Assembly: GCA_902792895.1 (NCBI GenBank) | Contig: CADBBK010000023.1 | Coordinates: 1 to 63,684 of the forward strand | DNA: 63,684 nt | Direction: 5' to 3' | Source of the DNA: an uncultured Bacteroidales bacterium | GTDB lineage: Bacteria > Bacteroidota > Bacteroidia > Bacteroidales > Muribaculaceae | Part shown: in pieces, positions 1 to 54,640 of the stretch | How positions within the stretch are numbered: the first letter of the stretch is position 1 | Layout: each line of letters opens with the position of its first letter | Translations under genes and position numbers: made by a program | The notes under the pieces: model-generated | Databases searched by the model: none | Told to the model about the DNA's origin: nothing | Seen by the model: the letters and a program-made list of their open reading frames with translations, nothing else

Positions 1-9
1 TCAATGAAG

Positions 10-42
10 CTGTTAGCTATTAGCCTTTAGCTATTAGCGAGA
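10..42. repeat. half-array of 7-base TTAGCTA-type repeats
   Basis: About four copies of a 7-base unit (TTAGCTA, TTAGCCT, TTAGCTA, TTAGCGA) lie at the left edge of the window. They resemble one arm of the inverted short-repeat arrays seen at 8082-8643 and elsewhere. The other arm, if there is one, would lie outside the window. No gene is visible in this stretch. Confidence 0.6.
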
Positions 43-51
43 GCTAGACAA

Positions 52-99
52 CGCGGGCGGCCCCCACCACGGGAGCCGCCCGTTATTTTATCCCCCCTG
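52..99. repeat. 48-base hairpin repeat, copy 1
   Basis: This 48-base sequence occurs again without a mismatch at 2653-2700. It folds into a stem of CGGGCGGC with GCCGCCCG, followed by TTATTTTAT, so it has the form of an intrinsic terminator on the plus strand. It forms the left border of the minisatellite element that runs to about 450. Confidence 0.85.
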
Positions 100-450
100 G
101 ACCGGCTGGACTCTCTGGACCGGCGCTGGATTCTCTGGACCGGCGCTGGACTCTCTGGACCGGCGCTGGATTCTCTGGACCGGCGCTGTCGCGCCTTTCC
201 TGGACTTTCTGGACCGCCGCTGGCGCGGCTCCCCTGGACAATCTGGACAAGCCGGCTAGCCAGGTCGCCGCCTTTGCGGCGATCGTCCACTCCATCCACT
301 CCATCCACTCCATCCAGTCCATCCAGTTTGTCCAGTCCGTCCAGCATGTCCAGTCCGTCCAGCATGTCCAGTCCGTCCAGTCCGTCCAGCATGTCCAGCC
401 TCTCCAGCCCGTCCAGTTTGTCCAGTCTCTCCAGCGTGTCCAGCCCGTCT
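100..450. repeat. inverted minisatellite element, gene-less copy
   Basis: Two arrays face each other. At about 100-258 there are units of 9 to 10 bases built on TGGAC. At about 284-447 there are 9-base units built on GTCCA, its reverse complement. Between them a 7-bp stem (265-271 with 276-282, loop CTTT) forms the apex. As a single strand the region could fold into one very long hairpin. The same architecture recurs at 3474-3770. The open reading frames across it (Leu-Asp-Gly or Ser-Ser-Pro repeats) are by-products of the period and I do not call them genes. Confidence 0.85.
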
Positions 451-489
451 CACTATTTTTGGTAGAATTGGAAAAAAAAGCAAATTTTC

Positions 490-520
490 TTTGTCAGAAT
501 AAAAAAATGCAGTACCTTTG
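490..520 (+). promoter_or_regulatory. Bacteroidota promoter TTTG-N19-TACCTTTG
   Basis: TTTG at 490-493 and TACCTTTG at 513-520 are separated by 19 bases, the standard spacing of the primary sigma factor promoter in this phylum. Transcription should begin near 526. The first substantial gene starts at 817, which leaves a leader of almost 300 bases or an unrecognised small transcript. Confidence 0.65.
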
Positions 521-816
521 CCAAACAAGATGAACCAACTAGCATGCTTTCATAGGAACCTAGATTAAGTCAGGAGATGAAAAATGAGTTCTATAGGCAG
601 GATTTGTCGACAGTTGGGTGGGCCGATGAGCATTCGGTGCCACGCCAGCGACGCGATACGATATAGACTTTACCTTATATATTAATAATGTATTACCATG
701 GCATGAAGTTATTCCGAAACTCTTTTGAAAAACCAGCATGATTTGACCCCTTGAATGTTTGAGAGAAATTTTTGTTTTTATTCACTTTATAATTATTAAT
801 TTAAATTAATTCATTT
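521..816 (+). other. long untranslated leader or small-transcript region
   Basis: No recognised gene lies here. The stretch downstream of the 490-520 promoter contains a possible 29-codon frame at 577-666 starting after GGAG and a 12-codon frame at 531; neither resembles anything I know. The last 40 bases before 817 are almost purely A and T, a leader type often found ahead of strongly expressed Bacteroidota genes. It could be a long 5' leader or a small RNA. Confidence 0.35.
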
Positions 817-2796
817 ATGAAGAAATTTTTATTTACTTTAGCTGCTGCTTTGATGGCAAGCACCATGTTTGCTACCGTAGTAGTTCCCGCTGAGGGCGCT
901 GCTGGCAGAATGTACATGTACTTCAACGACGTGAACCTTACCGAGAACAAGGGTGGTACGGTTGTCCTCGACCTGATGTGCCACTTTGAGGACTACATGA
1001 GCGCATTCCAGCTCGACCTGGGTACCGCTGTTCAGAATGGTGACAGCTACGACTTCACGCTCAACACGCTCCCCGGCGGCCTGACTGTTAAGACCGTTGG
1101 TAAGGGTGATTATTGGGCTGTTCCTTACACCGACGACGGCGGTGAAGAGGGAACTGTAAGCGTTTCGGTTCAGAAAGGTCAGAACAACACCCGTGTTATC
1201 GGTGCCCTGATGGAAGGTAACTACTGGGATCCCGATAATGACGGCGAGTATACGCTTCAGGGTGTAGCCAAGTGGGCTCCCGTTGAGAGCGCTGTATTGT
1301 TGAAATTCACCTTCAACGTTCCCGCTGACTATGCAGGTGGCCTCGTATGCTGCTACCTGGCTCCCACCAGTGGTGCTGACAACAACCCCGAGGTTAACGT
1401 TTGCTCCAAGACCGACAAGAACTACACCGTAGCTAACTTCTCGGTTGACCAGGAGATCGTTACTCCCGATGCTCCCACCATCACTTTCTCGGGTGAGGAG
1501 ACCACCACGATGACCGTTACCGTTACCGCTGCTGAGGGTTGCACCCTGATCGTTAACGGTGAGGCTCAGGAGAACCCCTACACCTACACTGTTGACCGTG
1601 CTGACGTTTACACCGCTGGTACCGTTGAGGTAACTGCTTATGCCGTTCTGAATGGTGTTGAGAGTGCTCCGGCTACCGCTAGCAAGGACTTCGTCGTTCA
1701 AGATCTGCCCGTTGCTGAGAAGCCCGCTATCCAGTTCGTTGAGACCAAGAACGATGACAACGAGGTAACTGAGGTTGAGGTTGTTGTAACCAACGCTACC
1801 AACTACACCATTACTGTTGACGGTGAACCCCTCCGTGGCGAGAAGATCCAGGCCAGCACTGAGGCCGCTAAGGCTATCCACGTTTATGCCGAGAACGATC
1901 CTGGCTATCCCTACGTAAAGAACACCAACGAGGCTGACTACACCCTGAACAAGCTGATGGAGACCACCGAGAAGCCCGTGATCAGCAGCTCCAACGACGA
2001 TGCTACCCAGCAGACCACCATCACCGCTACCGGTAATGGCCACATCTGCCTGTACAATGACGACGTACTGGTAGCTGAGGGCGACGGCGTTGCTACTTGG
2101 ACTGTTCCTTACAGCGATGATCCCGAGGGTGAGGAGTATGGCATGTCCGCTACCGCTCAGGAAGAGGGCAAGAAGGTCAGCGAGCCCGCTCTGGCTACCA
2201 TCGAGGTTCCTGGCAAGACCACCACTCCCGTTGATCCCACCGTTGCTACTCAGGCTCCCGACGGCGCTTATGCAGTAACTCCCGGTCAGCACGAGGTAGT
2301 TGTTACCATCACCCCGGCTAACGAGAACCAGACCGTTTGGTACCGTGTAATCTTCACCGACGCTGACGGTAACGTAACCACCAGCGACTGGATGGAGTAC
2401 ACCGATGCATTTAATGAGACCGTTGATGGCCACTATCGCATTGAGTTCTACGCAACTGAGGAAGGCTTCTTGCCCAGCTCGACTGGCGTTGTTGAGTTCT
2501 ATGTAACTCCCACCACCGGTATCGACGAGATCGCTAACGGCAAGACCGTTGCTGGCGTACGCTACTTCAACATGGCTGGTCAGGAGATGCAGGAGGCCAA
2601 CGGTATGACCATCGTTGTTACCACCTACACCGACGGCACCACCAGCGCTGTTCGCGGGCGGCCCCCACCACGGGAGCCGCCCGTTATTTTATCCCCCCTG
2701 TCCAGTTTCTCCAGTTTTTTAGTCGTTTTTTTGTCGGGCAGGGGATTAATGTATATTTTTGTGAGATGGTTTTTAAATGGTTTTAATCATGGATGA
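817..2796 (+). CDS. secreted cohesin-like, Ig-repeat protein with a displaced C-terminus
   Basis: The 659-residue product begins with a signal peptide (about 1-19). Residues of about 33-205 resemble a cohesin-type beta-sandwich of the kind found in Bacteroidota surface proteins (pattern YMSAFQLDLG). Several Ig-like or chitobiase-C-like beta modules follow (about 210-560). Residues of about 565-612 match the conserved C-terminal module of secreted Bacteroidales proteins (NMAGQEM, IVVTTYTDGTTSAV), which normally ends within a few residues after SAV. Instead, codon 613 begins exactly at the 48-base hairpin repeat (2653), and 47 foreign, partly hydrophobic residues follow. Codon use (GCT, GTT, ACC, AAC) differs from its neighbours and suggests very high expression. 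Cohesin identity is inferred by eye; Ig-like adhesin is the alternative. Confidence 0.75.
   Translation: MKKFLFTLAAALMASTMFATVVVPAEGAAGRMYMYFNDVNLTENKGGTVVLDLMCHFEDYMSAFQLDLGTAVQNGDSYDFTLNTLPGGLTVKTVGKGDYWAVPYTDDGGEEGTVSVSVQKGQNNTRVIGALMEGNYWDPDNDGEYTLQGVAKWAPVESAVLLKFTFNVPADYAGGLVCCYLAPTSGADNNPEVNVCSKTDKNYTVANFSVDQEIVTPDAPTITFSGEETTTMTVTVTAAEGCTLIVNGEAQENPYTYTVDRADVYTAGTVEVTAYAVLNGVESAPATASKDFVVQDLPVAEKPAIQFVETKNDDNEVTEVEVVVTNATNYTITVDGEPLRGEKIQASTEAAKAIHVYAENDPGYPYVKNTNEADYTLNKLMETTEKPVISSSNDDATQQTTITATGNGHICLYNDDVLVAEGDGVATWTVPYSDDPEGEEYGMSATAQEEGKKVSEPALATIEVPGKTTTPVDPTVATQAPDGAYAVTPGQHEVVVTITPANENQTVWYRVIFTDADGNVTTSDWMEYTDAFNETVDGHYRIEFYATEEGFLPSSTGVVEFYVTPTTGIDEIANGKTVAGVRYFNMAGQEMQEANGMTIVVTTYTDGTTSAVRGRPPPREPPVILSPLSSFSSFLVVFLSGRGLMYIFVRWFLNGFNHG
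2653..2700. repeat. 48-base hairpin repeat, copy 2, inside the 3' end of a CDS
   Basis: This is identical to 52-99. Here it begins in codon 613 of the preceding secreted-protein gene and continues into a short GTCCA-type stretch (2701-2716). It marks the left border of a second element that carries a four-helix-bundle gene. Confidence 0.85.
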
Positions 2797-3484
2797 TGAC
2801 AAGAGAAGTCCCAGACACTATGAGGATGGCACGGCGAGTGCATTGCGTCAAGGCACTGATTATCGCAAATTACGCTTCTACCATCGCAGCGACGTGTTAT
2901 ACCAGTTGACGCAGCTCTTCTGCAAGCGTTATTTCAAGAAATGGGGCGACCGCACCGTTGACCAGATGGTCCAAGCCGCCCGCAGCACCAAGCAGAACAT
3001 CGTTGAGGGGAGCATTGACGGCCGCACGTCGATGGAGAGCGAGATCAAGCTCCTGGGCATCGCCCGTGGTAGCAATGGCGAACTGCTCGAGGACTACCAT
3101 GATTACCTGAAGTGCATGGGACTGTCGCCATGGCAGCAGGACTATCCCCGTTATCAGCCGATGTTGGATTTCTGCCGGGGGCATTACGAGTATCAGGATT
3201 TTCAAGAACTACTGCCCAAGATGAATGGTGAGGAATTGGCCAATATGGCCATCTGCCTGTGTCATCAGGTGGATTCGGCGCTGGAGAAGTATATCGAGAG
3301 AAAAGACCGGGAATTCACTACCGAGGGTGGCATCCGGGAACGGATGACCGCAGCCCGCTTGAACCAGCGCGAGTCGCAGCGGCAGATCATTGACCGTCAA
3401 GCGCAAGAGATTGCTGCCCTCAAACAAGAAATTGCCTGCCTGAAAAAGAAACTGGACGACCTGGAACAGCTGGACCGCCGCTGA
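2777..3484 (+). CDS. four helix bundle suffix domain protein
   Basis: The product has 235 residues (231 if the ATG at 2789 is used). Residues of about 28-105 carry the four-helix-bundle core related to 23S rRNA intervening-sequence proteins and Avd (motifs GDRTVDQMVQAARSTKQNI and VEGS). A long extension of the 'suffix' type follows and ends in a coiled coil (about 205-232). The start overlaps the extended tail of the upstream gene by 20 bases. The last codons (QLDRR, stop) lie within a TGGAC-array unit that is nearly the same as one in the gene-less element near 210-237; there the stop TGA reads TGG. The gene is therefore embedded in the repeat element. Its molecular function is unknown; nucleic-acid binding is known for Avd relatives. 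Confidence 0.85.
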   Translation: MVLIMDDDKRSPRHYEDGTASALRQGTDYRKLRFYHRSDVLYQLTQLFCKRYFKKWGDRTVDQMVQAARSTKQNIVEGSIDGRTSMESEIKLLGIARGSNGELLEDYHDYLKCMGLSPWQQDYPRYQPMLDFCRGHYEYQDFQELLPKMNGEELANMAICLCHQVDSALEKYIERKDREFTTEGGIRERMTAARLNQRESQRQIIDRQAQEIAALKQEIACLKKKLDDLEQLDRR

Positions 3485-3776
3485 CGCAGCTCCCCTGGAC
3501 GGACAGGACTGGCTGGACCGGCTGGACTATCTGGACTGGCTGGACTATCTGGACTATCTGGACTATCTGGACTATCTGGACCGGCGCTGGCGCGCCTTTC
3601 CTGGACTGGCTGGATGATCTGGACTGGCTAGATTGCTGGCTTGCCGCCTTTGCGGCAATCGTCCAGTCCATCCAGTTTATCCAGTCCATCCAGTCCATCC
3701 AGTCCATCCAGTCTATCCAGTCTATCCAGTCTATCCAGTCCATCCAGTCTATCCAGTCCATCCAGTTTCTCCGGGC
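3466..3776. repeat. inverted minisatellite element adjoining a four-helix-bundle gene
   Basis: TGGAC-type units (about 3474-3632) and GTCCA-type units (about 3660-3770) flank an apex hairpin at 3641-3658 (TTGCCGC, loop CTTT, GCGGCAA). Compared with the copy at 265-282, the second pair of the stem is T-A instead of C-G, a compensatory change that keeps the pairing. The element ends just upstream of the pyrG promoter. Confidence 0.85.
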
Positions 3777-3791
3777 AATCCAGGGGGGTGA

Positions 3792-5453
<1,662 letters not shown>

Positions 5454-5456
5454 TTG

Positions 5457-5981
5457 AGTTGTAAGTTTTTAGTTGTAAGTTTTTAGTAATAATACTATCG
5501 CCTAGAAACCTACATCAAGAAACTTGCAAAATGAACAGAACAACTGACAAACAACCACCAACTAATAATGAAATCAAGCGATTTTAGAGAGTTGAAAGTC
5601 TGGCAAAAAGCAATGGACCTGACGGTTGAGATATACTCAATCGTCAAGCTGTTGCCTCGGGAGGAGATGTTCGCCTTGTCCGACCAAATGCGCAGGGCTG
5701 CTGTGTCTATTCCCTCCAATATCGCTGAAGGGCAGGGACGTGACACAATGAAGGAATTTATCAGATTTCTTTCTGTCGCTCGAGGGTCACTCCGTGAATT
5801 GTCCACCCAGTTGGAAATCTGCGAGCGGGTTCATTACTTGACCCAATCGCAGACAACAAACGCTAATCAGATGATTGAAGAAATCGACAAAATGCTTAAT
5901 GCCCTCTCAAAATCGCTCATCCCGTTTTAAGTTAGAGGCAATGGTAATCTTACTTAAAACTTACAACTTAAAACTTACAAC
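5457..5981. mobile_element. putative four-helix-bundle element with inverted AGTTGTAAGTTTTT arrays
   Basis: Two copies of a 14-base unit, AGTTGTAAGTTTTT, lie at 5457-5486, and two inverted copies (AAAACTTACAACTT type) lie at 5953-5981. They bracket a single gene at 5568-5930. The left arm begins within a few bases of the pyrG stop codon and the right arm ends just before yidC. Gene-less sequence with a similar left arm, including the shared stretch CTATCGCC, occurs at 42189-42300. Mobility is inferred from layout; no transposase or target duplication is evident. Confidence 0.55.
5568..5930 (+). CDS. four helix bundle protein (S23/IVP family)
   Basis: A 120-residue protein of the four-helix-bundle family first described from open reading frames in 23S rRNA intervening sequences and related to Avd of diversity-generating retroelements. 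Conserved features include ELKVWQKA near the start, LSDQMRRA, the family signature PSNIAEG, and ELSTQLEI. It is roughly two thirds identical by eye to the protein at 8126-8500, and both begin at similar DNA (GAAATCAAG). It lies between pyrG and yidC in the same direction and is enclosed by inverted short-repeat arrays. The family is thought to form pentamers that bind nucleic acid; the role here is unknown. Confidence 0.9.
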   Translation: MKSSDFRELKVWQKAMDLTVEIYSIVKLLPREEMFALSDQMRRAAVSIPSNIAEGQGRDTMKEFIRFLSVARGSLRELSTQLEICERVHYLTQSQTTNANQMIEEIDKMLNALSKSLIPF

Positions 5982-5992
5982 TAAATAAATAT

Positions 5993-8071
5993 ATGGATAA
6001 AAACACTTTGATTGGATTGTTGTTGATGGGTCTCGTGATCGTCGGCTTTTACTGGCTCAATAAGCCTAGCGAAGCTGAGCTCGCCGAGCATCAACGGCAA
6101 TTGGACTCCATCGCCGCGGCACAGCAGACACAACAGCGCCGCGACATCGCTGCCGGCGACGTCGACACTCTCAGCGTCGACGAGCTGGCCCACCTGCAGA
6201 GCGTGCTCGAGAACATGCCTGCCGGCAATGCTGTGATTAACAACGAGGGCGTCGTGCTCGCCATGCGCGACGGACAGGTGTCGGGAACCGTCACCGTGGG
6301 TGACACCACCGTGACGTGGGACGAGGTGTCGGCACACACCAGTGCCAACCCCGCCGTACACAACCTGGCTGTACAGGCCGTGCAACGCGCACTGGATGTG
6401 TATGCCAAGAACGGCTCCTTCGCCGCCTCGCTCACGGGAACGGAGCAGCTGGTGGCGCTCGAGAACGACTCGCTCAAGGTCGAGTTGAGCACCAAGGGCG
6501 GTATCATCGCCCGCGCCACGCTCAAGGGCTACAAGACCTGGAAGGCGCCGCAACTGGTGCTGTTTGACAAGGGTGACAACGACTATAGCTTCACCCTGAG
6601 TAACAACACACAGCGCTTCGAGACCAAGAACTTCTACTTTGAGCCCCAGAAGCTCAATGACAGCACCGTGCTGATGAACCTGCAGCTCGAGGGTGGTGCC
6701 CAGTGGGGCTTGAAGTACACCCTCATCCCCGGTAGCTACATGGTGCGCATGGAGATGGTGCAGAAGGGCATGACCAGCATCATCCCGCTGAACATCAACC
6801 TAGTGGACCTCGACTGGCATCAGAAGATCTCGCGCCATGAGTTCGGCAAGACCTTCGAGGAGCGCAACAGCGGTATCTACTATAAGTTCTCGGGCAAGGA
6901 TGGCGAGGTGAAGTATACCAAGGAGAGCGGCAACGACGAGAAGGAGGTTCAGGACAAGCTCAAGTGGGTGAGTGCCAAGAACCAGTTCTTCTCGACCGTG
7001 CTCATCACCGACAGCATCTTCTCCAGCGCCAAGATGACCAGCAACGACACCCAGGACACGCCCGACTACGAGAACTACCTCAAGGATGTGAACATCCACA
7101 CCATGGTGCCCTACTCGAGCGATAAGCCCGTGCCCGCGTCTTTCTACTTCTATCTGGGCCCGAACAGGTACCACATGCTGTCGTCCTATGACAAGTACTC
7201 CCCCAAGGAGGACCTGAAGCTCACCCATCTCATCCCTCTGGGCTGGAAACTGTTCCGATGGATCAACACGGGCGTGATTATTCCCGTGTTTGACTGGCTG
7301 GGTAAGTTCATGACCAACTACGGTCTTATTATCCTGGTGCTCACCATCATCATCAAGATCGTGCTGTCGCCGCTGACCTACAAGAGCTACATCTCGCAGG
7401 CCAAGATGCGTATCCTCGCACCTGACATCGCTGCAATCAACGAGAAGTACCCCAATCAGGAGGACGCCCTCAAGAAGCAGCAGAAGACGATGGAACTCTA
7501 TCGCCAGGCCGGCGCCAACCCGATGGGTGGCTGTCTGCCCATGTTGCTGCAGATGCCCATCCTCATCGCGATGTTCACCTTCTTCCCCTCGTGCATCGAG
7601 CTGCGAGGACAGTCGTTCCTTTGGGCCAATGACCTGAGTGCCCCCGATAAGATCATCCAGTGGGGTACCCACATCCCCATCATTTCCAGCCTGTTCGGTA
7701 ACCACGTGAGCCTCTTCTGCTTGCTGATGACCGTTACCAACATCCTCTACACCTGGATGACCACCAAGTCACAGCCCTCGTCGCAGTCGATGCCGGGCAT
7801 GAAGTGGATGATGTACTTGATGCCGCTGATGTTCCTGTTCTTCTTCAACAACTACGCATCAGGTCTGAGCTACTACTACTTCATCTCACTGCTCATCACC
7901 ATCCTGCAGACCTACAGCTGCCGCTTCTTCATCACCGAGGACAAGGTGCGTGCCACCATGGCCGCCAATGCCGCCAAGCCCAAGAAGAAATCCAAGTGGG
8001 CCCAGCGTCTCGAGGAAGCCCAGAAGATGCAGCAACAGCAGCAGCGTGCCAACGCCAAGCGCCGTCGTTGA
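5993..8071 (+). CDS. yidC: membrane protein insertase YidC
   Basis: YidC inserts and folds inner-membrane proteins, alone or with SecYEG. The 692-residue product has an N-terminal membrane anchor (about 5-21), a long periplasmic beta domain (about 22-410) typical of Gram-negative forms, and the conserved core of transmembrane segments from about 430 (GKFMTNYGLIILVLTIII) through 640. The C-terminal tail is rich in Lys, Arg and Gln, as expected for a ribosome-contacting end. The start lies 12 bases after the right repeat arm of the four-helix element. pyrG and yidC may therefore have been neighbours before the insertion. Confidence 0.97.
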   Translation: MDKNTLIGLLLMGLVIVGFYWLNKPSEAELAEHQRQLDSIAAAQQTQQRRDIAAGDVDTLSVDELAHLQSVLENMPAGNAVINNEGVVLAMRDGQVSGTVTVGDTTVTWDEVSAHTSANPAVHNLAVQAVQRALDVYAKNGSFAASLTGTEQLVALENDSLKVELSTKGGIIARATLKGYKTWKAPQLVLFDKGDNDYSFTLSNNTQRFETKNFYFEPQKLNDSTVLMNLQLEGGAQWGLKYTLIPGSYMVRMEMVQKGMTSIIPLNINLVDLDWHQKISRHEFGKTFEERNSGIYYKFSGKDGEVKYTKESGNDEKEVQDKLKWVSAKNQFFSTVLITDSIFSSAKMTSNDTQDTPDYENYLKDVNIHTMVPYSSDKPVPASFYFYLGPNRYHMLSSYDKYSPKEDLKLTHLIPLGWKLFRWINTGVIIPVFDWLGKFMTNYGLIILVLTIIIKIVLSPLTYKSYISQAKMRILAPDIAAINEKYPNQEDALKKQQKTMELYRQAGANPMGGCLPMLLQMPILIAMFTFFPSCIELRGQSFLWANDLSAPDKIIQWGTHIPIISSLFGNHVSLFCLLMTVTNILYTWMTTKSQPSSQSMPGMKWMMYLMPLMFLFFFNNYASGLSYYYFISLLITILQTYSCRFFITEDKVRATMAANAAKPKKKSKWAQRLEEAQKMQQQQQRANAKRRR

Positions 8072-8125
8072 TTTATTATCCTTTAGGTTTTAGGTATTAG
8101 GCTTTAGGCTTTAGGTTTTGACAAT

Positions 8126-8500
8126 ATGGTGAAATCAAGTGATTATCAGGAATTAAAGGTATGGCAGAAAGCTGTTGACTTGACAACTGAAATTTATGAG
8201 TTGGTCAAGCTGCTGCCAGCCGAGGAACAATATGCTTTATCTGACCAAATGCGTAGAGCTGTTGTTTCTGTTCCGTCTAATATTGCTGAAGGTCGAGGCC
8301 GTGGAACAAATAAGGAATTCGTACGATATCTGTTGATGTCAAGAGGCTCTTTGTGGGAACTCTCAACACAACTTGTGATTTGCGAGAAACTGCAATACTT
8401 AAAACAAGATCAAATGCATGATGCGAGGCAATTGATAGTGGAAATAAGCAAGATGATCAATGCTTTAGCTAAATCGTTCAGTAATGATGAAAAAGATTGA
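8126..8500 (+). CDS. four helix bundle protein (S23/IVP family)
   Basis: A 124-residue relative of the 5568-5930 product, with ELKVWQKA, LSDQMRRA, PSNIAEG and ELSTQL conserved at the same positions. It starts seven bases after the left repeat array. A GTG one codon later is an alternative start. Both paralogues follow essential genes in the same direction, so they could be expressed by read-through. Differences are concentrated in the last helix. Function is unknown beyond the family link to nucleic-acid binding. Confidence 0.9.
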   Translation: MVKSSDYQELKVWQKAVDLTTEIYELVKLLPAEEQYALSDQMRRAVVSVPSNIAEGRGRGTNKEFVRYLLMSRGSLWELSTQLVICEKLQYLKQDQMHDARQLIVEISKMINALAKSFSNDEKD

Positions 8501-8610
8501 ATTTGGAAAAATGCATTGTGATTTGGACGATGGATGCAACTTTTTGATGTAACGGAGTGTCTAATGATAAAATATGTTTAATTGCTCAGGGTCGAAGCTG
8601 CGGTGTCATC
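8501..8610 (+). other. untranslated 3' part of the four-helix element
   Basis: About 110 bases separate the four-helix stop codon from the right repeat arm. I see no gene in them. They could be structural RNA of the element, or remnant sequence. Confidence 0.3.
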
Positions 8611-8649
8611 ACCTAAAGCCTAAAACCTAAAGCCTAAAACCTATCTATT

Positions 8650-9069
8650 ATGTACATTCATCATTGTCCCGAGTGCGGGAAGCAGTATAGCACTCAAGAG
8701 AAAGTTAATCGTGTGAAGTGCCCCTATTGCGGAGCCGAGACCAACGTGTCCTATTCCGACCAGCAGCAGTTCAGCGGGCAACCGCTGTCGGGCATCGATA
8801 GTGTGTTCTTCAATGGACCGTCGGGCAAGAGCCGCGGTGTGGCTGCTATCCTGGCCTTGTTCGCTGGCGCCTTTGGCCTGCACTATTTCTATATCGGCAA
8901 GACCAACGCAGGTATTCTGTTCCTGGCGATATGCCTCCTGTCGTGCTTCTTCTTAGGCATTGTTACCCAAATCGTTTCCTTCATCCAGGGTATTCTGTTC
9001 CTGGTCAGCTCTCAAGATGAGTTTGAGAGCCGCTGGGTGAACTCGCCCAGCAGTGTGCCCTTGTTCTAA
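8650..9069 (+). CDS. TM2 domain protein with N-terminal zinc ribbon
   Basis: A 139-residue protein. Residues of about 5-27 form a zinc ribbon with two CxxC pairs (CPEC and CPYC). Residues of about 58-120 form a TM2 domain, with two hydrophobic segments and the motif GLHYFYIGKTNAGI. Proteins of this type are common in Bacteroidota and have no firm function. It begins seven bases after the right arm of the repeat element. It is followed closely by the GH25 gene and may share a transcript with it. Confidence 0.85.
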   Translation: MYIHHCPECGKQYSTQEKVNRVKCPYCGAETNVSYSDQQQFSGQPLSGIDSVFFNGPSGKSRGVAAILALFAGAFGLHYFYIGKTNAGILFLAICLLSCFFLGIVTQIVSFIQGILFLVSSQDEFESRWVNSPSSVPLF

Positions 9070-9083
9070 CACCCTGACTGCCT

Positions 9084-9854
9084 ATGGGTAAACGCCAAGT
9101 CCCCACAAAACCCGACTACATCAAGTGGCTGCTCCTCGCCGGAGTGGTTGCACTTGTTGTGGCGCTTGGCTGGTTTGTGCTACGCAACTATATCTTGCCG
9201 CACTCGGTGACGGTGGACCGTTTCCGCTACCCGATTGCCGGCATTGATGTGTCCAAGCACAACGGCGTCATCGACTTTGCTCAGGTGGCGGCCGATGATT
9301 ACCAGTTTGCCTTCATCAAGGCCAGCGAGGGTAAGACCTACAAGGACGACGCGTTTGACCACAACTACCGCGGGGCCCGTGAAGCAGGCCTCAAGGTGGG
9401 AGCCTACCACTTTTTCCGCAAGAACCGCACTGGCCAGGAGCAGGCCGACAACCTGCTGGCCGTGATTCGGGGCAAGAAGCTCGACTTGCCCGTGGTTATC
9501 GACCTCGAGGATGACTGGGGCAACGGCGCCACCGTGGACCGCCAGACCACCCTGCAACGCGTCATGGAGATGGTCAAGTGCCTCAAGGACAATGGCTATC
9601 GTGTGATGATTTACACCAACCTCGATGGCTATGGCAAGTACTACAAGAATATCCTGGGCGACTGCGACCTGTGGCTCTGCTCGTTTAACAGCCCTGACCT
9701 GATGCAGCACACGGGGCAACGCATGCAGCAGTACAGCCATGAGGGCCGTGTCGCCGGTGTTGACGGTGACGTGGACCTCAACGTGTTTGTGGGTGACAAG
9801 AGCGAGTGGCAGCGGTACCTTGATGAACAGCAACAATTGACCGATAACCAATAA
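9084..9854 (+). CDS. GH25 family lysozyme (N-acetylmuramidase)
   Basis: A 256-residue protein with one N-terminal membrane anchor or uncleaved signal (about 16-35) and a GH25 catalytic domain (about 50-245). Visible GH25 motifs are GIDVSKHNG, AFIKASEG, GAYHFF and the acidic pair in VVIDLEDD. GH25 enzymes hydrolyse the beta-1,4 bond between N-acetylmuramic acid and N-acetylglucosamine in peptidoglycan. The anchor suggests that it acts at the periplasmic face of the inner membrane. It lies 14 bases after the TM2 gene and 16 bases before a secreted protein of unknown function. Confidence 0.9.
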   Translation: MGKRQVPTKPDYIKWLLLAGVVALVVALGWFVLRNYILPHSVTVDRFRYPIAGIDVSKHNGVIDFAQVAADDYQFAFIKASEGKTYKDDAFDHNYRGAREAGLKVGAYHFFRKNRTGQEQADNLLAVIRGKKLDLPVVIDLEDDWGNGATVDRQTTLQRVMEMVKCLKDNGYRVMIYTNLDGYGKYYKNILGDCDLWLCSFNSPDLMQHTGQRMQQYSHEGRVAGVDGDVDLNVFVGDKSEWQRYLDEQQQLTDNQ

Positions 9855-9870
9855 TTCATCCATCAGCGCA

Positions 9871-10476
9871 ATGAAGAGAACCATCCGACTCATAGCTCCA
9901 CTGATTGTCCTGCTCATGATGGCCACATGGGCTGCCGATGCTGCAGCGACGGTCTATAACTGGAGCCGCTACGACCTGTCGTTTGAGACTCCCGACGACG
10001 GCTTCGTGGTCTTTAACAGCCCGACACGCTTCGAGGTCCAGTGGGAGGACATGGTCATGACCGTGCAACTCTACAGCCAGGACAAGGGCGACGAGAAGAA
10101 GATGCTCACCGAGAACCTGCAGCGCAAGGCCTTGGGCTACAACATGTATGACCTGCACGACGGCAAGATTAAGGTCAAAGGCTTCAAGAAGACCTACAGC
10201 ATCGACGGCACCATGCCTGACGGGTCGCGCGCCATCATTGCCGACCTGGTGAGCAAGCACCAGAACCTCATCATCGAGATCACCGTGGTCTACCTCTACG
10301 GCAACCGCGAGACTGTCGAGGACATGATCAAGAGCTTTGCCGAGAACAAGCAACAAAAGCCCAACCATGAGCGCAAGCGCCAAAAGGTGCAGACCAAGGA
10401 GAAAGCCAAGAGTCAGGACAAGAAAAAGCAGCCCGAGCAGCGTCCTGCCCGCAACGAGAAACTCTATGACGCCTAA
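9871..10476 (+). CDS. secreted protein of unknown function, charged C-terminus
   Basis: A 201-residue protein that I do not recognise. A signal peptide covers about residues 1-25. A mixed alpha/beta region (about 28-160) follows, and the last 45 residues are rich in Lys, Gln and Arg, as in a disordered basic tail. The gene sits 16 bases after the GH25 gene and 27 bases before the DUF3078 gene, so it probably belongs to a cell-envelope operon. Confidence 0.75.
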   Translation: MKRTIRLIAPLIVLLMMATWAADAAATVYNWSRYDLSFETPDDGFVVFNSPTRFEVQWEDMVMTVQLYSQDKGDEKKMLTENLQRKALGYNMYDLHDGKIKVKGFKKTYSIDGTMPDGSRAIIADLVSKHQNLIIEITVVYLYGNRETVEDMIKSFAENKQQKPNHERKRQKVQTKEKAKSQDKKKQPEQRPARNEKLYDA

Positions 10477-10503
10477 CACTTAACCTCTAAACTCCAGATA
10501 ACA

Positions 10504-11757
10504 ATGAAAAAAATCACTACACTCAACATCTGCCTGGCACTTGCCGCACTCGTGGCTGTGTGCCCGGTCGCCCGCGCTGCCGATGACGAGCAGACGCAGG
10601 CTGTGCAACCCAGCATGTTGTATGTGCCACTGGTCTATGACCACTATGTGGGCGAGGCCGATGCACACCCGATGACGCCAACCGCCAAGGACGGGCTCTA
10701 CAGCCTGGATGCCGGTGACGAGTGGTTGCAAGAGGCCATGAACAACTCTTCGCGCACCCGCCAGACGCGCCAGCGCGCGATGATCGAGAATCCTCAACTC
10801 GTGGCCTATAATGCCGAGACGCTGCCTGCCGCTCCCCCCGAGGGTGTCATTCCCGCCGACCCGCGCAGCGCCATGCTGACCATCGGCCAGACCCAGTTCG
10901 CCGTCGAGGATGTCACGCCTCCCGATGCCCCTCTGCCCCCAGTCCACAACTGGCTGCACGTGTTCAACGCATCATTACAGTTCACCCAGGCTTACATCAG
11001 CGGCAACTGGTACCAGGGCGGTGAGAACAACCTGGCTCTGCTGGGTTCAGTGAACTGGAATTGCAACCTCAATCAGGACCTGCACCCCAACTGGCTGTTC
11101 AACAACGCCTTGTCCTACAAACTGGGTATCGCCACTACCCACGGCGACAGCATCCGCAAGTATCTCATCAACGAGGATAACTTCCTGTTCACCTCCCAGT
11201 TGGGTTACAAGGCCGTGAAACACTGGTACTACAGTGCCATGTTGCAGTTCACGACGCAGTTCCTCAACAATTACAAGGTCAACACCCGCAACAAGACGGC
11301 TGCTTTCCTCTCGCCCGCCGAATTGAACATCGGTCTCGGTATGACCTACAGCTACAAGAAGGCCGACGACCGCATGTTCACGCTGGCCATCGCCCCGCTG
11401 TCCTATAACCTGAAGTATTGCCGCAACATCACCGATATCGACCCCACGCGCTTCGGTATCCCTGCCGCCAAGCACAGCAAGAGCACCTTCGGTAGCAACT
11501 TCGAGGCCAAGTGGCTGTGGCGCTTTACCCCCAATGTGATGATTACCTCCAGGCTCTACATGTTCACCAACTACGAGTATGTGCAGGGCGATTGGGAGAA
11601 CACCCTCGACCTGTCCATCGGCAAGTATCTGACCACCCAGCTGTACACCCACCTGCGCTTTGACCGCTCGCGTCCCCGCGACAATGACTGGAATTACTGG
11701 CAGTTTAAGGAAATCCTCAGTCTGGGTATCGTCTACCGCTTTGCAACCGTGAACTGA
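10504..11757 (+). CDS. DUF3078 family outer-membrane protein
   Basis: A 417-residue protein with a signal peptide (about 1-24), a spacer, and from about residue 140 a DUF3078-type beta-barrel region. The hallmarks are aromatic-rich alternating strands such as NWLHVFNASLQFTQAYISG and NWYQGGENN, and the C-terminal run ending in VYRFATVN. The family is confined to Bacteroidota; its function is unestablished, but it is expected in the outer membrane. Confidence 0.85.
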   Translation: MKKITTLNICLALAALVAVCPVARAADDEQTQAVQPSMLYVPLVYDHYVGEADAHPMTPTAKDGLYSLDAGDEWLQEAMNNSSRTRQTRQRAMIENPQLVAYNAETLPAAPPEGVIPADPRSAMLTIGQTQFAVEDVTPPDAPLPPVHNWLHVFNASLQFTQAYISGNWYQGGENNLALLGSVNWNCNLNQDLHPNWLFNNALSYKLGIATTHGDSIRKYLINEDNFLFTSQLGYKAVKHWYYSAMLQFTTQFLNNYKVNTRNKTAAFLSPAELNIGLGMTYSYKKADDRMFTLAIAPLSYNLKYCRNITDIDPTRFGIPAAKHSKSTFGSNFEAKWLWRFTPNVMITSRLYMFTNYEYVQGDWENTLDLSIGKYLTTQLYTHLRFDRSRPRDNDWNYWQFKEILSLGIVYRFATVN

Positions 11758-11768
11758 TCTGCCCCGGC

Positions 11769-12371
11769 ATGTTCCGTCGATTACTGCTCATATCGCTCTT
11801 GGCCACCGTCACCCTGCTCCCGTTGATGGCGAAGTCGGGTAGTGGTGTGCCCAAGAAGTCGGTAGTGCTCGACGGACTCGACGTCGACTCGATGCGCACG
11901 CGCCTCGACGAGACCGACATGCAGCCGCTGGAGGGCATCTGGTATTACCCCAACGAGGAGATGACGCTGGGCATCGAGCGCTATCGCGGTCCGCACAATA
12001 TCGGATACCGCATCATCTTGCTCGATTCGCCCGACATCAACGACGTTCCCGGCACCGTCATCGGCTACATCGCCACCAGCGCTGTGGACGACAAGTACCA
12101 GTTGTGGCTCTACAGCCAGCGCGACCGCTTGACGCTGATCAAGCCGCTCGAGTGTGTGGCAACGCTGAACAAGACAGCGACCACGCTGACCTTTGACCCG
12201 CCACACTGGAAAATCAAGGTGCGCGTCAATGTCGCCCGGTTCCTGCCCACGCTGTTCAACGGCATCAGCATCATCCCCGAGCGTGTCGAGGAACGGTTGC
12301 CGATAGGCTTCCGCAAGATTTATCCCGAGGGAGGCGATGGCGCCCCGTTTAACCGCATACGTTACCTGTGA
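11769..12371 (+). CDS. secreted protein of unknown function
   Basis: A 200-residue protein with a signal peptide (about 1-21). The mature part contains the sequence LEGIWYYPNEEMTLGIERY, which resembles the start of a lipocalin-like beta-barrel fold, though the match is weak. The stop codon TGA overlaps the ATG of the next gene by one base (12371). That fits translational coupling. Confidence 0.75.
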   Translation: MFRRLLLISLLATVTLLPLMAKSGSGVPKKSVVLDGLDVDSMRTRLDETDMQPLEGIWYYPNEEMTLGIERYRGPHNIGYRIILLDSPDINDVPGTVIGYIATSAVDDKYQLWLYSQRDRLTLIKPLECVATLNKTATTLTFDPPHWKIKVRVNVARFLPTLFNGISIIPERVEERLPIGFRKIYPEGGDGAPFNRIRYL

Positions 12372-20683: not shown

Positions 20684-20750
20684 CCTCACGCTAAGACGCT
20701 AAGACGCCAAATGATCAATAACCTTAGCGACTGAGCGGCTTAGCGTGAGA
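20684..20750. repeat. palindromic intergenic element with GCTAAGAC-type units
   Basis: CTCACGCTAAG at 20685-20695 is perfectly inverted at 20739-20749. Inside are further partial repeats (CTAAGACG, CTTAGCGACTGAGCGG). It is a small gene-less example of the inverted short-array layout seen around the four-helix genes and lies between truA and speA. Confidence 0.75.
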
Positions 20751-41142: not shown

Positions 41143-42192
41143 ATGATGAAACGATATAAGATATATGGTTTGATGGCTCTGATGGCACTGCTCATGGCCT
41201 CGTGTGCGATTCATGACCCGTTTGCCGACAACGGACAACTCGGTCAGGTGCTGCCCACAGTGGACTGGGAGCAAGGCTCCACGGTGGTCAAGGCGGGCCG
41301 CTATGCCACCTTCAAGGGCAAGTACTATACCACTAGCGAGAAAGCGATTGACCACAGCGAGGTGTGGTGTCTCATCAAGCGTGAGCAGACCGCCACGGCG
41401 ACCAGCAAGTTAACGACGTCGCTGGCTTATACCAAGAACTACTCCCTGACCGACACGGTGCGTTCCAGCCAGATGGTGGCCACCTATCCCCATAGCAAAG
41501 CCGAGTGGGACGGTTATGAGTATGTGCTGACCGACAGTTTCCCCACGTCCCGTACCCTGGCCCCTGTGACCTGGGTAAATCCTGAGGAGTGGGACCAGGA
41601 GAAGTTTGACAGCTATTATCCCTCGACGTTCCAGGACGAGTTCATGGCCTACATGGTCAACGCATTGACCAAGGACAGCACCTATTACAACGACCTGCGC
41701 AACGTCTATATCAAGTACAATTTCCCCATCGAGTTGTTTGAGCAGCTGAATGCTCAGTACAACATCGATTTCCCGACCGACACGACGACCGATGACAAGT
41801 CCAATGCCTGGTTCACCACCGATGAAGTGGATCATTACTACTACATCACGGTGGGCGAGGACGGCTCGGCGGTCTATCATGAGATCGCTGAGGAGAGCGC
41901 AGCCCCCGCAGGGGCCAACGTTCAGCCGGTTTACGAGTCGGCGTTCTGGCTCTTCTCGCGCTACAGCGACGACACGGGCGGCAAGATCACTACGGTGCGT
42001 CGCGAGTACATGCCCTATTTCAAGAGCCTGATTGAGACGATACCTTTCACGTCGTGGATCTACAACACGGCCGATAAAGTCTACACGGTGAACTTCAGCC
42101 GCACCTACTATCTGGAACCCCAATTCCGCGTGTATGACACCGATGGCAAGGTGGGCGTGACTACCGATAACAAAGAAGTAACACTTAATTAG
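41143..42192 (+). CDS. lipoprotein of unknown function in the Sus locus
   Basis: A 349-residue lipoprotein (Cys21 in LMASC). I do not recognise a domain; the sequence is rich in aromatic and Thr/Ser residues, as in glycan-binding surface proteins. By position directly after SusD it is a candidate surface glycan-binding protein. The stop codon TAG falls inside the left arm of a repeat array (42189-42220). Confidence 0.8.
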   Translation: MMKRYKIYGLMALMALLMASCAIHDPFADNGQLGQVLPTVDWEQGSTVVKAGRYATFKGKYYTTSEKAIDHSEVWCLIKREQTATATSKLTTSLAYTKNYSLTDTVRSSQMVATYPHSKAEWDGYEYVLTDSFPTSRTLAPVTWVNPEEWDQEKFDSYYPSTFQDEFMAYMVNALTKDSTYYNDLRNVYIKYNFPIELFEQLNAQYNIDFPTDTTTDDKSNAWFTTDEVDHYYYITVGEDGSAVYHEIAEESAAPAGANVQPVYESAFWLFSRYSDDTGGKITTVRREYMPYFKSLIETIPFTSWIYNTADKVYTVNFSRTYYLEPQFRVYDTDGKVGVTTDNKEVTLN

Positions 42193-42300
42193 TTATAAGT
42201 TTTTAGTTGTAGGTTTTTAGTATGGTTTCTATCGCCCGTTCAAACAGATAGCATAAAGTATTAATACTTACAACTTAAGACAAAAACTTAAAACTTTAGG
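42189..42300. repeat. gene-less inverted array related to the 5457-5981 element
   Basis: The left arm (AGTTATAAGTTTTT, AGTTGTAGGTTTTT; 42189-42220) closely matches the left arm after pyrG. Both are followed by AGTA and, six bases later, CTATCGCC. The right arm (ACTTACAACTTAAG, AAAACTTAAAAC type; about 42266-42300) is inverted. Only about 45 bases separate the arms and there is no four-helix gene, so it looks like an internally deleted copy. Confidence 0.75.
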
Positions 42301-54587: not shown

Positions 54588-54626
54588 AAAACCCCTAACC
54601 CCTAACTCCTAACTCCTAACTATTAA
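54588..54626. repeat. half-array of CCCTAAC/TCCTAAC 7-base repeats
   Basis: About five 7-base units (CCCTAAC twice, TCCTAAC twice, then a degenerate unit) lie in the transcribed leader of lysA. A short inverted piece (GGTTAGTTT) precedes them. It resembles a single arm of the inverted arrays. Confidence 0.65.
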
Positions 54627-54640
54627 ACGGCATCATCTTC

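Follow-up and report, generated by a model that had tools for sequence, protein, structure and literature searches.

Four-helix-bundle genes between inverted heptad arrays: candidate REPIN/RAYT-like elements with an S23-type partner protein

Results

Two short genes bracketed by inverted arrays

The window analysed here (63,684 nt of contig CADBBK010000023.1, assembly GCA_902792895.1, from an uncultured Bacteroidales bacterium of the Muribaculaceae; hereafter genome G000, 96% complete) carries two short four-helix-bundle genes, one between pyrG and yidC (element 1) and one between yidC and a TM2-domain gene (element 2). A preliminary description of the DNA had placed both genes between inverted arrays of short tandem repeats, and this arrangement was confirmed (Table 1): the inverted arms of element 1 (5442-5503 and 5936-5997, 62 nt) are 81% complementary and those of element 2 (8084-8123 and 8604-8643, 40 nt) 88% complementary, and in RNA fold predictions the arms of each element pair with one another (z -6.95 and -4.02, respectively). 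The left arrays begin close to the upstream stop codon and the right arrays end close to the next start codon, also as described. The further statement that each gene stands alone between its arrays held for element 1, but not at yidC-TM2, where a native spacer conserved in gene-less relatives separates gene 2 from the right arm; the arms there bracket the interval from stop codon to start codon, not the gene alone. The general anatomy is a stop codon, a left array of ~4-10 heptads, most with one AG, the gene, an inverted right array and a start codon.

Table 1. Elements, family genes and arrays of the window (positions are those of the window).
Feature	Position	Strand	Remarks
Element 1 left array	5457..5487	+	Unit AGTTGTAAGTTTTT, 14 nt = 2 x 7 (two heptamers); begins 3 nt past pyrG stop
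Four-helix-bundle gene 1 (S23-like, PF05635/TIGR02436)	5568..5930	+	120 aa, frame open
Element 1 right array	5952..5982	-	Inverted copy; ends 10 nt short of yidC ATG
Element 2 left array	8082..8119	+	Units TTTAGGC/TTTAGGT; 10 nt past yidC stop
Four-helix-bundle gene 2 (PF05635/TIGR02436)	8126..8500	+	124 aa, frame open
Native spacer part before TM2 gene, within element 2 bracket	8523..8540	+	Kept in relatives without the gene; resembles a sigma54 promoter
Element 2 right array	8611..8643	-	Ends 6 nt short of TM2-domain gene ATG
Third family member, 'four helix bundle suffix' protein (TIGR04258)	2777..3484	+	235 aa
9-nt arrays in hairpin layout, directly 3' of suffix gene	3506..3774		3506-3585 and 3658-3774
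Gene-less 7-nt array	7..39		TTAGCTA
8-nt GCTAAG array	20688..20707		Part of gene-less hairpin in the spacer before a truA-like gene (L236)
Gene-less 7-nt array	42188..42222		Like element 1 arrays (by eye)
Gene-less 7-nt array	54588..54627		Of the type flanking two family genes of G000 contig C6

The proteins of genes 1 and 2 match PF05635/TIGR02436 (E 2.5e-37 to 9.7e-42), and their TIGR02436 profile scores of 137 and 127 bits, against a curated cut-off of 24, place them within the family. AlphaFold2, run on the gene 1 protein with an alignment of 24 family members, predicted four helices (pLDDT 96.2), and a Foldseek search with the predicted structure returned 2gsc (TM 0.91), 2rld (up to 0.81) and Avd (4dwl, 0.79). 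Both 2gsc and 2rld comprise five chains, and the title of the paper on 2gsc speaks of five four-helix bundles. Eight family members were found in G000, three of them in the window. Among the others, the two on contig C6 have clear 7-nt inverted arrays that differ in sequence from those of the window, the member on C17 has weaker 7-nt traces and strong hairpins, the long form on C19 has 9-nt arrays, and the long form on C34 has a 57-nt repeat and lacks inverted flanks. The S23-like family takes its name from rRNA inserts, yet it occurred in 88 of the 118 genomes of a phylum sample, and in 56 of 61 genomes sampled from the genus (one genome per species).

Family genes are associated with inverted arrays in other genomes

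Inverted flanks were scored by local alignment of the 250 nt upstream of a gene against the reverse complement of the 250 nt downstream, with a score of at least 15 taken as a pass. For the genus we chose 77 loci out of 236 matches (eight from G000, the 29 best of other genomes and the 40 next by E-value), skipping two, one already contained in a yidC locus and one at a contig end, and leaving out weak or fragmentary matches. All but L037 and L123, which gave no match to an open reading frame, entered the test, and 57 of these 75 family genes passed; five of the 75 are long members (at least 160 aa), and the short ones passed in 56 of 70 cases. Among 298 open frames in 440 kb of G000, picked by length, some of them antisense and with the genome's own three long members not set apart, 10 passed; five of these were family genes, leaving 5 of 293 others (Fisher 1e-44 against the 57 of 75). 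The five include a Y1 transposase gene (C17 4735-5184); the other four we take to be an IS (insertion sequence)-transposase-like gene, a frame between dockerin-like coding repeats, one by a duplicated spacer and one by a GCTAAG hairpin.

A domain-wide scan of 80 loci, which were the most similar to the query and hence are biased to its subfamily, gave 50 passes among 79 (the flank of L261 was too short), compared with none of 72 controls in which a 360-nt stretch, often coding, was taken at a shifted position. Passing loci came from records titled Clostridia, Proteobacteria, Planctomycet(ot)a, Acidobacteria, Verrucomicrobia and Chloroploca, and a locus of a Methanophagales archaeon scored 14.5, slightly below the threshold. 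The expectation that the gene family would be tied to inverted short-repeat arrays elsewhere was thus borne out in the genus and domain-wide, and more weakly in the phylum sample. Viewed from the repeats, arrays paired in inverted orientation within 3 kb numbered only eight in 440 kb of G000: a family gene lies inside five of these pairs and beside a sixth, and the remaining two span 1.7-1.9 kb of other genes.

Array type follows protein type

Across 158 domain-wide flanks a period of 7 nt was found in 66, 8 nt in 12 and 9 nt in 6 (none in shuffled flanks), with a median array length of 4.7 units. The consensus unit in the genus is N(T/C)T-A-G-(T/A/G)-N, with A at 96% and G at 89% (from 56 loci that carry 7-nt arrays, with weighting by junction); the corresponding core in 50 domain-wide loci has A at 81% and G at 89%. 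The information content of the domain-wide unit is 3.54 bits, and random flipping of strands never left more than 2.74 bits, so that, as a rule, the AG strand runs inward from both ends. By eye, the 8-nt and 9-nt arrays mostly hold one AG per unit too, and the 6-nt array of L034 does not.

Arms and proteins vary together. Left and right units were more similar within one locus (0.83, n=48) than among unrelated loci (0.58), and protein identity correlated with array similarity (rho 0.30, reached in 0 of 1000 permutations) over 1395 pairs with no neighbouring gene in common. At nine junctions used in several species, arms matched better within a species (0.85) than between species (0.78, p 0.009), most strongly at junctions J3, J4 and J6. 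On a protein tree with few columns and unsettled bootstrap, the 8-nt and 7-nt periods cluster (2 changes vs 5.9, and 8 vs 13.9, by shuffling) and the scarce 6-, 9- and 10-nt periods show no clustering. Array type and protein type match one another.

Occupied, gene-less and empty junctions

Within the genus sample, the YidC closest to that of G000 shares 87% identity. At 50 yidC loci (pyrG seen in 48 and the TM2 gene in 45; genome G021, with 5% contamination, contributes two), a four-helix gene occupied pyrG-yidC in six and yidC-TM2 in six, and both junctions were occupied in G000 only. Among the 31 nearest loci the other pyrG-yidC spacers were short, held array remnants or contained a GxxExxY-like gene with inverted flanks of its own, such a gene lying directly upstream of yidC in at least nine genomes by coordinates. 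At a junction before a truA-like gene (gene names presumed), 27 of 30 loci were readable (L254-L256 were not parsed): 4 held four-helix elements and 2 held 7-nt arrays without a gene; GCTAAG hairpins filled 9 (G000 among them) and TCTAGA arrays another 9, and a CTATAG array, another spacer and a zero-length spacer (taaatg) were seen in one each. Relatives offer both occupied and unoccupied versions of all three junctions. Of the two outcomes that the preliminary description had named as refuting it, uniform occupation in all relatives and no tie of the family to inverted arrays elsewhere, neither was observed. Some gene-less spacers at the truA-like junction (e.g. L229, L235 and L245) carry repeats with a 9-nt TCTAGA or CTATAG unit.

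The upstream stop codon was TAG more often before a 7-nt array, both at yidC-TM2 (3/6 vs 0/24) and at the truA-like junction (5/6 vs 6/21; counted by eye and tested), and these TAG stops were often in register with the array; at pyrG-yidC TAG was the stop in 0/6. The element may supply the stop codon of the upstream gene.

Clustering of the loci gave 42 junction groups (some of them one site split), 12 with two or more loci. On the tree, many proteins cluster with others from their own junction (e.g. J1, J2, J6 and J11), while those of J3, J4 and J5 are split. The ratio of nonsynonymous to synonymous substitution (dN/dS) was 0.04-0.15 in 14 of 16 ortholog pairs, the other two being saturated, which indicates purifying selection. 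Together with the grouping by junction, this implies a function of the protein that has been maintained for long times at fixed sites, and such values at fixed sites are more constraint than expected of a purely selfish copy. Between junctions, DNA homology is often limited to arm-gene-arm and ends in or near the arms (e.g. L004/L005, L020/L088 and L012/L014): the C6 pair of G000 is 73.8% identical over -35..+23 of the gene, and L020/L088 are 71.5% identical over -62..+80. In these cross-junction pairs inverted ends delimit the homology, as they do in insertion sequences and miniature inverted-repeat transposable elements (MITEs).

Gene-less arrays and hairpins

Gene-less arrays and array hairpins are dispersed through the genome. 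In the 440 kb of G000, 18 arrays of 7 nt lie away from short family genes; 15 are of the genome's own types, none is of a type of the related genome G009 (one narrowly misses the threshold for one such type) and 3 are unassigned. An inverted partner within 220 nt was found for 19 of all 46 7-nt arrays in G009 and for 3 of 25 in G000. Hairpins of different array types in these two genomes (L128-L147 and L207-L226) often share a GGCATCCGC loop. Its core, GCATCCGC, was considered as an end of the four-helix elements and rejected, being present at 4/75 loci only. Elsewhere in the window, a GC-rich sequence of ~46 nt (cgggcggcccccaccacgggagccgcccg...; ~52-98 and 2655-2701) precedes, by eye, the first 9-nt array and the suffix gene.

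A second protein family with the same plan

GxxExxY genes (TIGR04256) were present in 55 of the 61 genus genomes. They too are single genes between inverted flanks, mostly with 9-nt units (L177-L206 and L337-L366; in G000, C12:82668-83006). The flank test was passed by 25 of 30 genus loci and by 16 of 30 phylum loci, the latter with looser spacing. By best period, 25 of the genus loci have 9 nt and 3 have 8 nt, with units resembling CNRATTNNN or GCTAAGNC. These arrays are short: over 120 genus and phylum flanks, the array score of the four-helix loci was reached by 9 at 9 nt and by 4 at 8 nt. The same plan thus serves both kinds of protein, at a spacing particular to each. The number of 9-nt arrays rose with GxxExxY copies across the 61 genomes (rho 0.52), but fell to 0.22 (p 0.09) once two arrays per copy were subtracted, and we do not count it as support.

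Discussion

We propose that these are REPIN/RAYT-like dispersed-repeat elements whose partner is a four-helix bundle of the S23 type, not a tyrosine transposase, with both binding and movement putative; we give this reading an even chance. The elements seem to form a dispersed repeat system of a kind not described before, with a partner protein of its own. The S23-like family has been termed functionally uncharacterised and found in rRNA inserts of the candidate phyla radiation (CPR) (PMC11270868), and has been found in cas loci (PMC3936711); the passages on the family in these two papers do not mention arrays, and a search of the open-licence PMC literature found no prior report of arrays around four-helix-bundle genes. 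If the genes do travel or persist with cognate array hairpins, the S23-like family would gain a testable function, a class of intergenic short tandem repeats would be explained, and a REPIN-like system would be added that encodes no recognisable transposase itself. The array code, i.e. period plus NAG core, yields directly testable predictions of binding.

A possible mechanism is that five subunits of the protein assemble into a ring, which recognises the evenly spaced NAG triplets of the protein's own arrays as long as these are single-stranded, either as an mRNA hairpin or as a displaced DNA strand, in the manner of TRAP, which reads spaced (G/U)AG repeats. Such binding would tie array hairpins in trans to the resident gene, and could help the hairpins to spread or persist. 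Stem cutting, as by RNase III in 23S rRNA intervening sequences (IVSs), would take the insert out of a read-through mRNA, in which the arms pair, so that an element lying between genes of an operon would do almost no harm. Copying would probably depend on host functions or on a resident Y1 transposase. The broadest version of this proposal, in which bacteria-wide single-gene repeat systems use a non-enzymatic ring protein that reads NAG triplets at fixed spacing in its own inverted heptad arrays and drives hairpin upkeep or spread in trans, with the unrelated GxxExxY protein having evolved the same plan at another spacing, is a serious candidate that we rate somewhat below even.

Several observations weigh against this interpretation. 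The association is incomplete: 18 of the 75 genus family genes score below 15, and in the phylum sample only 8 of 27 loci pass (27 of 29 tested). At three of the nine shared junctions (J1, J2 and J11) the arms of one species match each other no better, or hardly better, than arms between species. A native spacer lies inside the bracket at all six occupied yidC-TM2 loci, its sigma54-like motif clear in L038 and L042 and partial or reduced to the downstream part in the other four, and the insertion of a single cassette therefore fails as an explanation. Several copies are found at the same site in many species, and homology across sites reaches only ~68-80%, so that any movement is old. Pfam searches of both window proteins returned only 23S_rRNA_IVP and bAvd, with no catalytic domain and no Y1, which argues against autonomy. 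In 369 kb of G009, 41 gene-less 7-nt arrays comprised 16 of that genome's own two types, 21 of G000 types and 4 unassigned; the split between G000 and G009 is significant (Fisher 0.002) on a reference list that is uneven, with five arm types from G000 and two from G009, which has four matches. Finally, GCATCCGC links the gene-less 7-nt hairpins to GxxExxY loci (16/30) more than to four-helix loci (4/75).

That small genes simply happen to lie in repeat-rich intergenic DNA is hardly credible, for although arrays do also stand by themselves (440 kb contained 53, of several periods), the controls contradict it (5/293 frames, 0/72 shifted stretches and 0 shuffled flanks) and only eight inverted array pairs were found within 3 kb, five of them enclosing a family gene. 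A more substantial alternative is that the array hairpins are non-autonomous and moved by a resident HUH/Y1 transposase acting in trans, the four-helix and GxxExxY genes being passengers or modulators. Y1_Tnp genes occur in 55 of the 61 genus genomes and correlate in copy number with the four-helix family (rho 0.50); of the five genomes without the family, four have no Y1_Tnp either (Fisher 1.4e-4), which again speaks against autonomy; two different protein families follow the same plan; and the Y1 gene of G000 (C17 4735-5184) has strong inverted flanks itself. Those flanks are, however, unlike heptad arrays by eye, four-helix matches occur in G053 and G058, which have no Y1 match, and the co-absence is confounded by size, the five genomes being of 2.1-2.5 Mb and family copy number following genome size (rho 0.56). 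Since, moreover, the array class follows protein family (7 nt vs 9/8 nt) and protein similarity, we consider this account unlikely.

The elements might instead be domesticated regulators that do not move, with arrays that form intercistronic mRNA hairpins, a ring protein that controls the processing or expression of its own operon as TRAP would, and array change by slippage and gene conversion. Purifying selection on the protein, the occupation of one junction in several species, arms that bracket stop to start codon, the co-variation of the arms and their pairing in RNA folds would all fit, as would the arithmetic by which TTAG units at a 7-nt period place a stop codon in each of three frames. 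The occurrence of family and arrays in 42 junction groups, even with some of these one site split, speaks against it, as do the absence of the gene from most relatives at the three compared junctions, element-limited homology between junctions and the dispersed gene-less arrays, and we regard it as quite unlikely. We find it improbable that the elements simply carry the plan of 23S rRNA intervening sequences to a new place, as selfish inserts at the RNA level that RNase III removes and whose protein is dispensable. The same protein family does lie between inverted ends in both settings, and the stem of the Coxiella IVS is cut by RNase III (PMC4990558); but the protein is conserved here (dN/dS 0.04-0.15), whereas the Coxiella open reading frame is described as undergoing reductive evolution, the portions of that account considered here describe no tandem arrays (PMC4990558), and rRNA matched at none of the 80 domain-wide loci, albeit in draft genomes that often lack rRNA.

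Comparison with known systems

The short tandemly repeated repetitive (STRR) heptanucleotide sequences of cyanobacteria are likewise 7-nt tandem repeats in intergenic DNA; they are not known to have a partner gene. TRAP is a ring protein that reads AG triplets at fixed spacing, as suggested for the present family, but it differs in fold, subunit number and spacing and serves as an analogy only. Avd shares the fold (TM 0.79 to 4dwl), but the window proteins score 45.6 and 35.7 bits against DivGenRetAVD, below its cut-off of 80. A role as Avd of a diversity-generating retroelement (DGR) was rejected, as there was no reverse transcriptase (PF00078) match in G000.

The parallel with REP/RAYT drawn in the preliminary description stands in part. 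REPIN/RAYT systems combine inverted short repeats in hairpins, dispersed gene-less copies, repeats tied to one gene and vertical inheritance (PMC3116915, PMC8049555, PMC3733652), the last extending over long times for RAYTs (PMC8049555). The present elements resemble them in their hairpin-forming inverted short repeats, dispersed gene-less copies and link to a single gene, and in a conserved protein that, from its grouping by junction (J3, J4 and J5 split) and its dN/dS, appears vertically inherited, often at the same junction. They differ in that the protein is a four-helix bundle without a Y1/HUH match, and hence outside the Y1 family, and in that the repeats are heptad tandem arrays whose unit changes between loci. 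Cognacy of gene-less repeats with the resident genes held in one of two genomes, G000 (own vs other types 15 vs 0), and less in G009 (16 vs 21), on the uneven reference list.

The link to 23S rRNA intervening sequences, likewise suggested at the outset, holds for the protein and finds no counterpart in location. The Coxiella IVS is 428 nt long, with a 28-bp terminal stem (PMC4990558), and here too a protein of the same family can lie alone between inverted ends that pair in RNA. The elements described here lie between protein genes (pyrG, yidC and TM2), an Rfam search of window positions 1-12000 gave no match, their ends are periodic NAG arrays and their gene is under purifying selection. If the ends of intervening sequences proved to be NAG heptads as well, the present system would be the general kind, and the intervening sequences its rRNA-resident variant.

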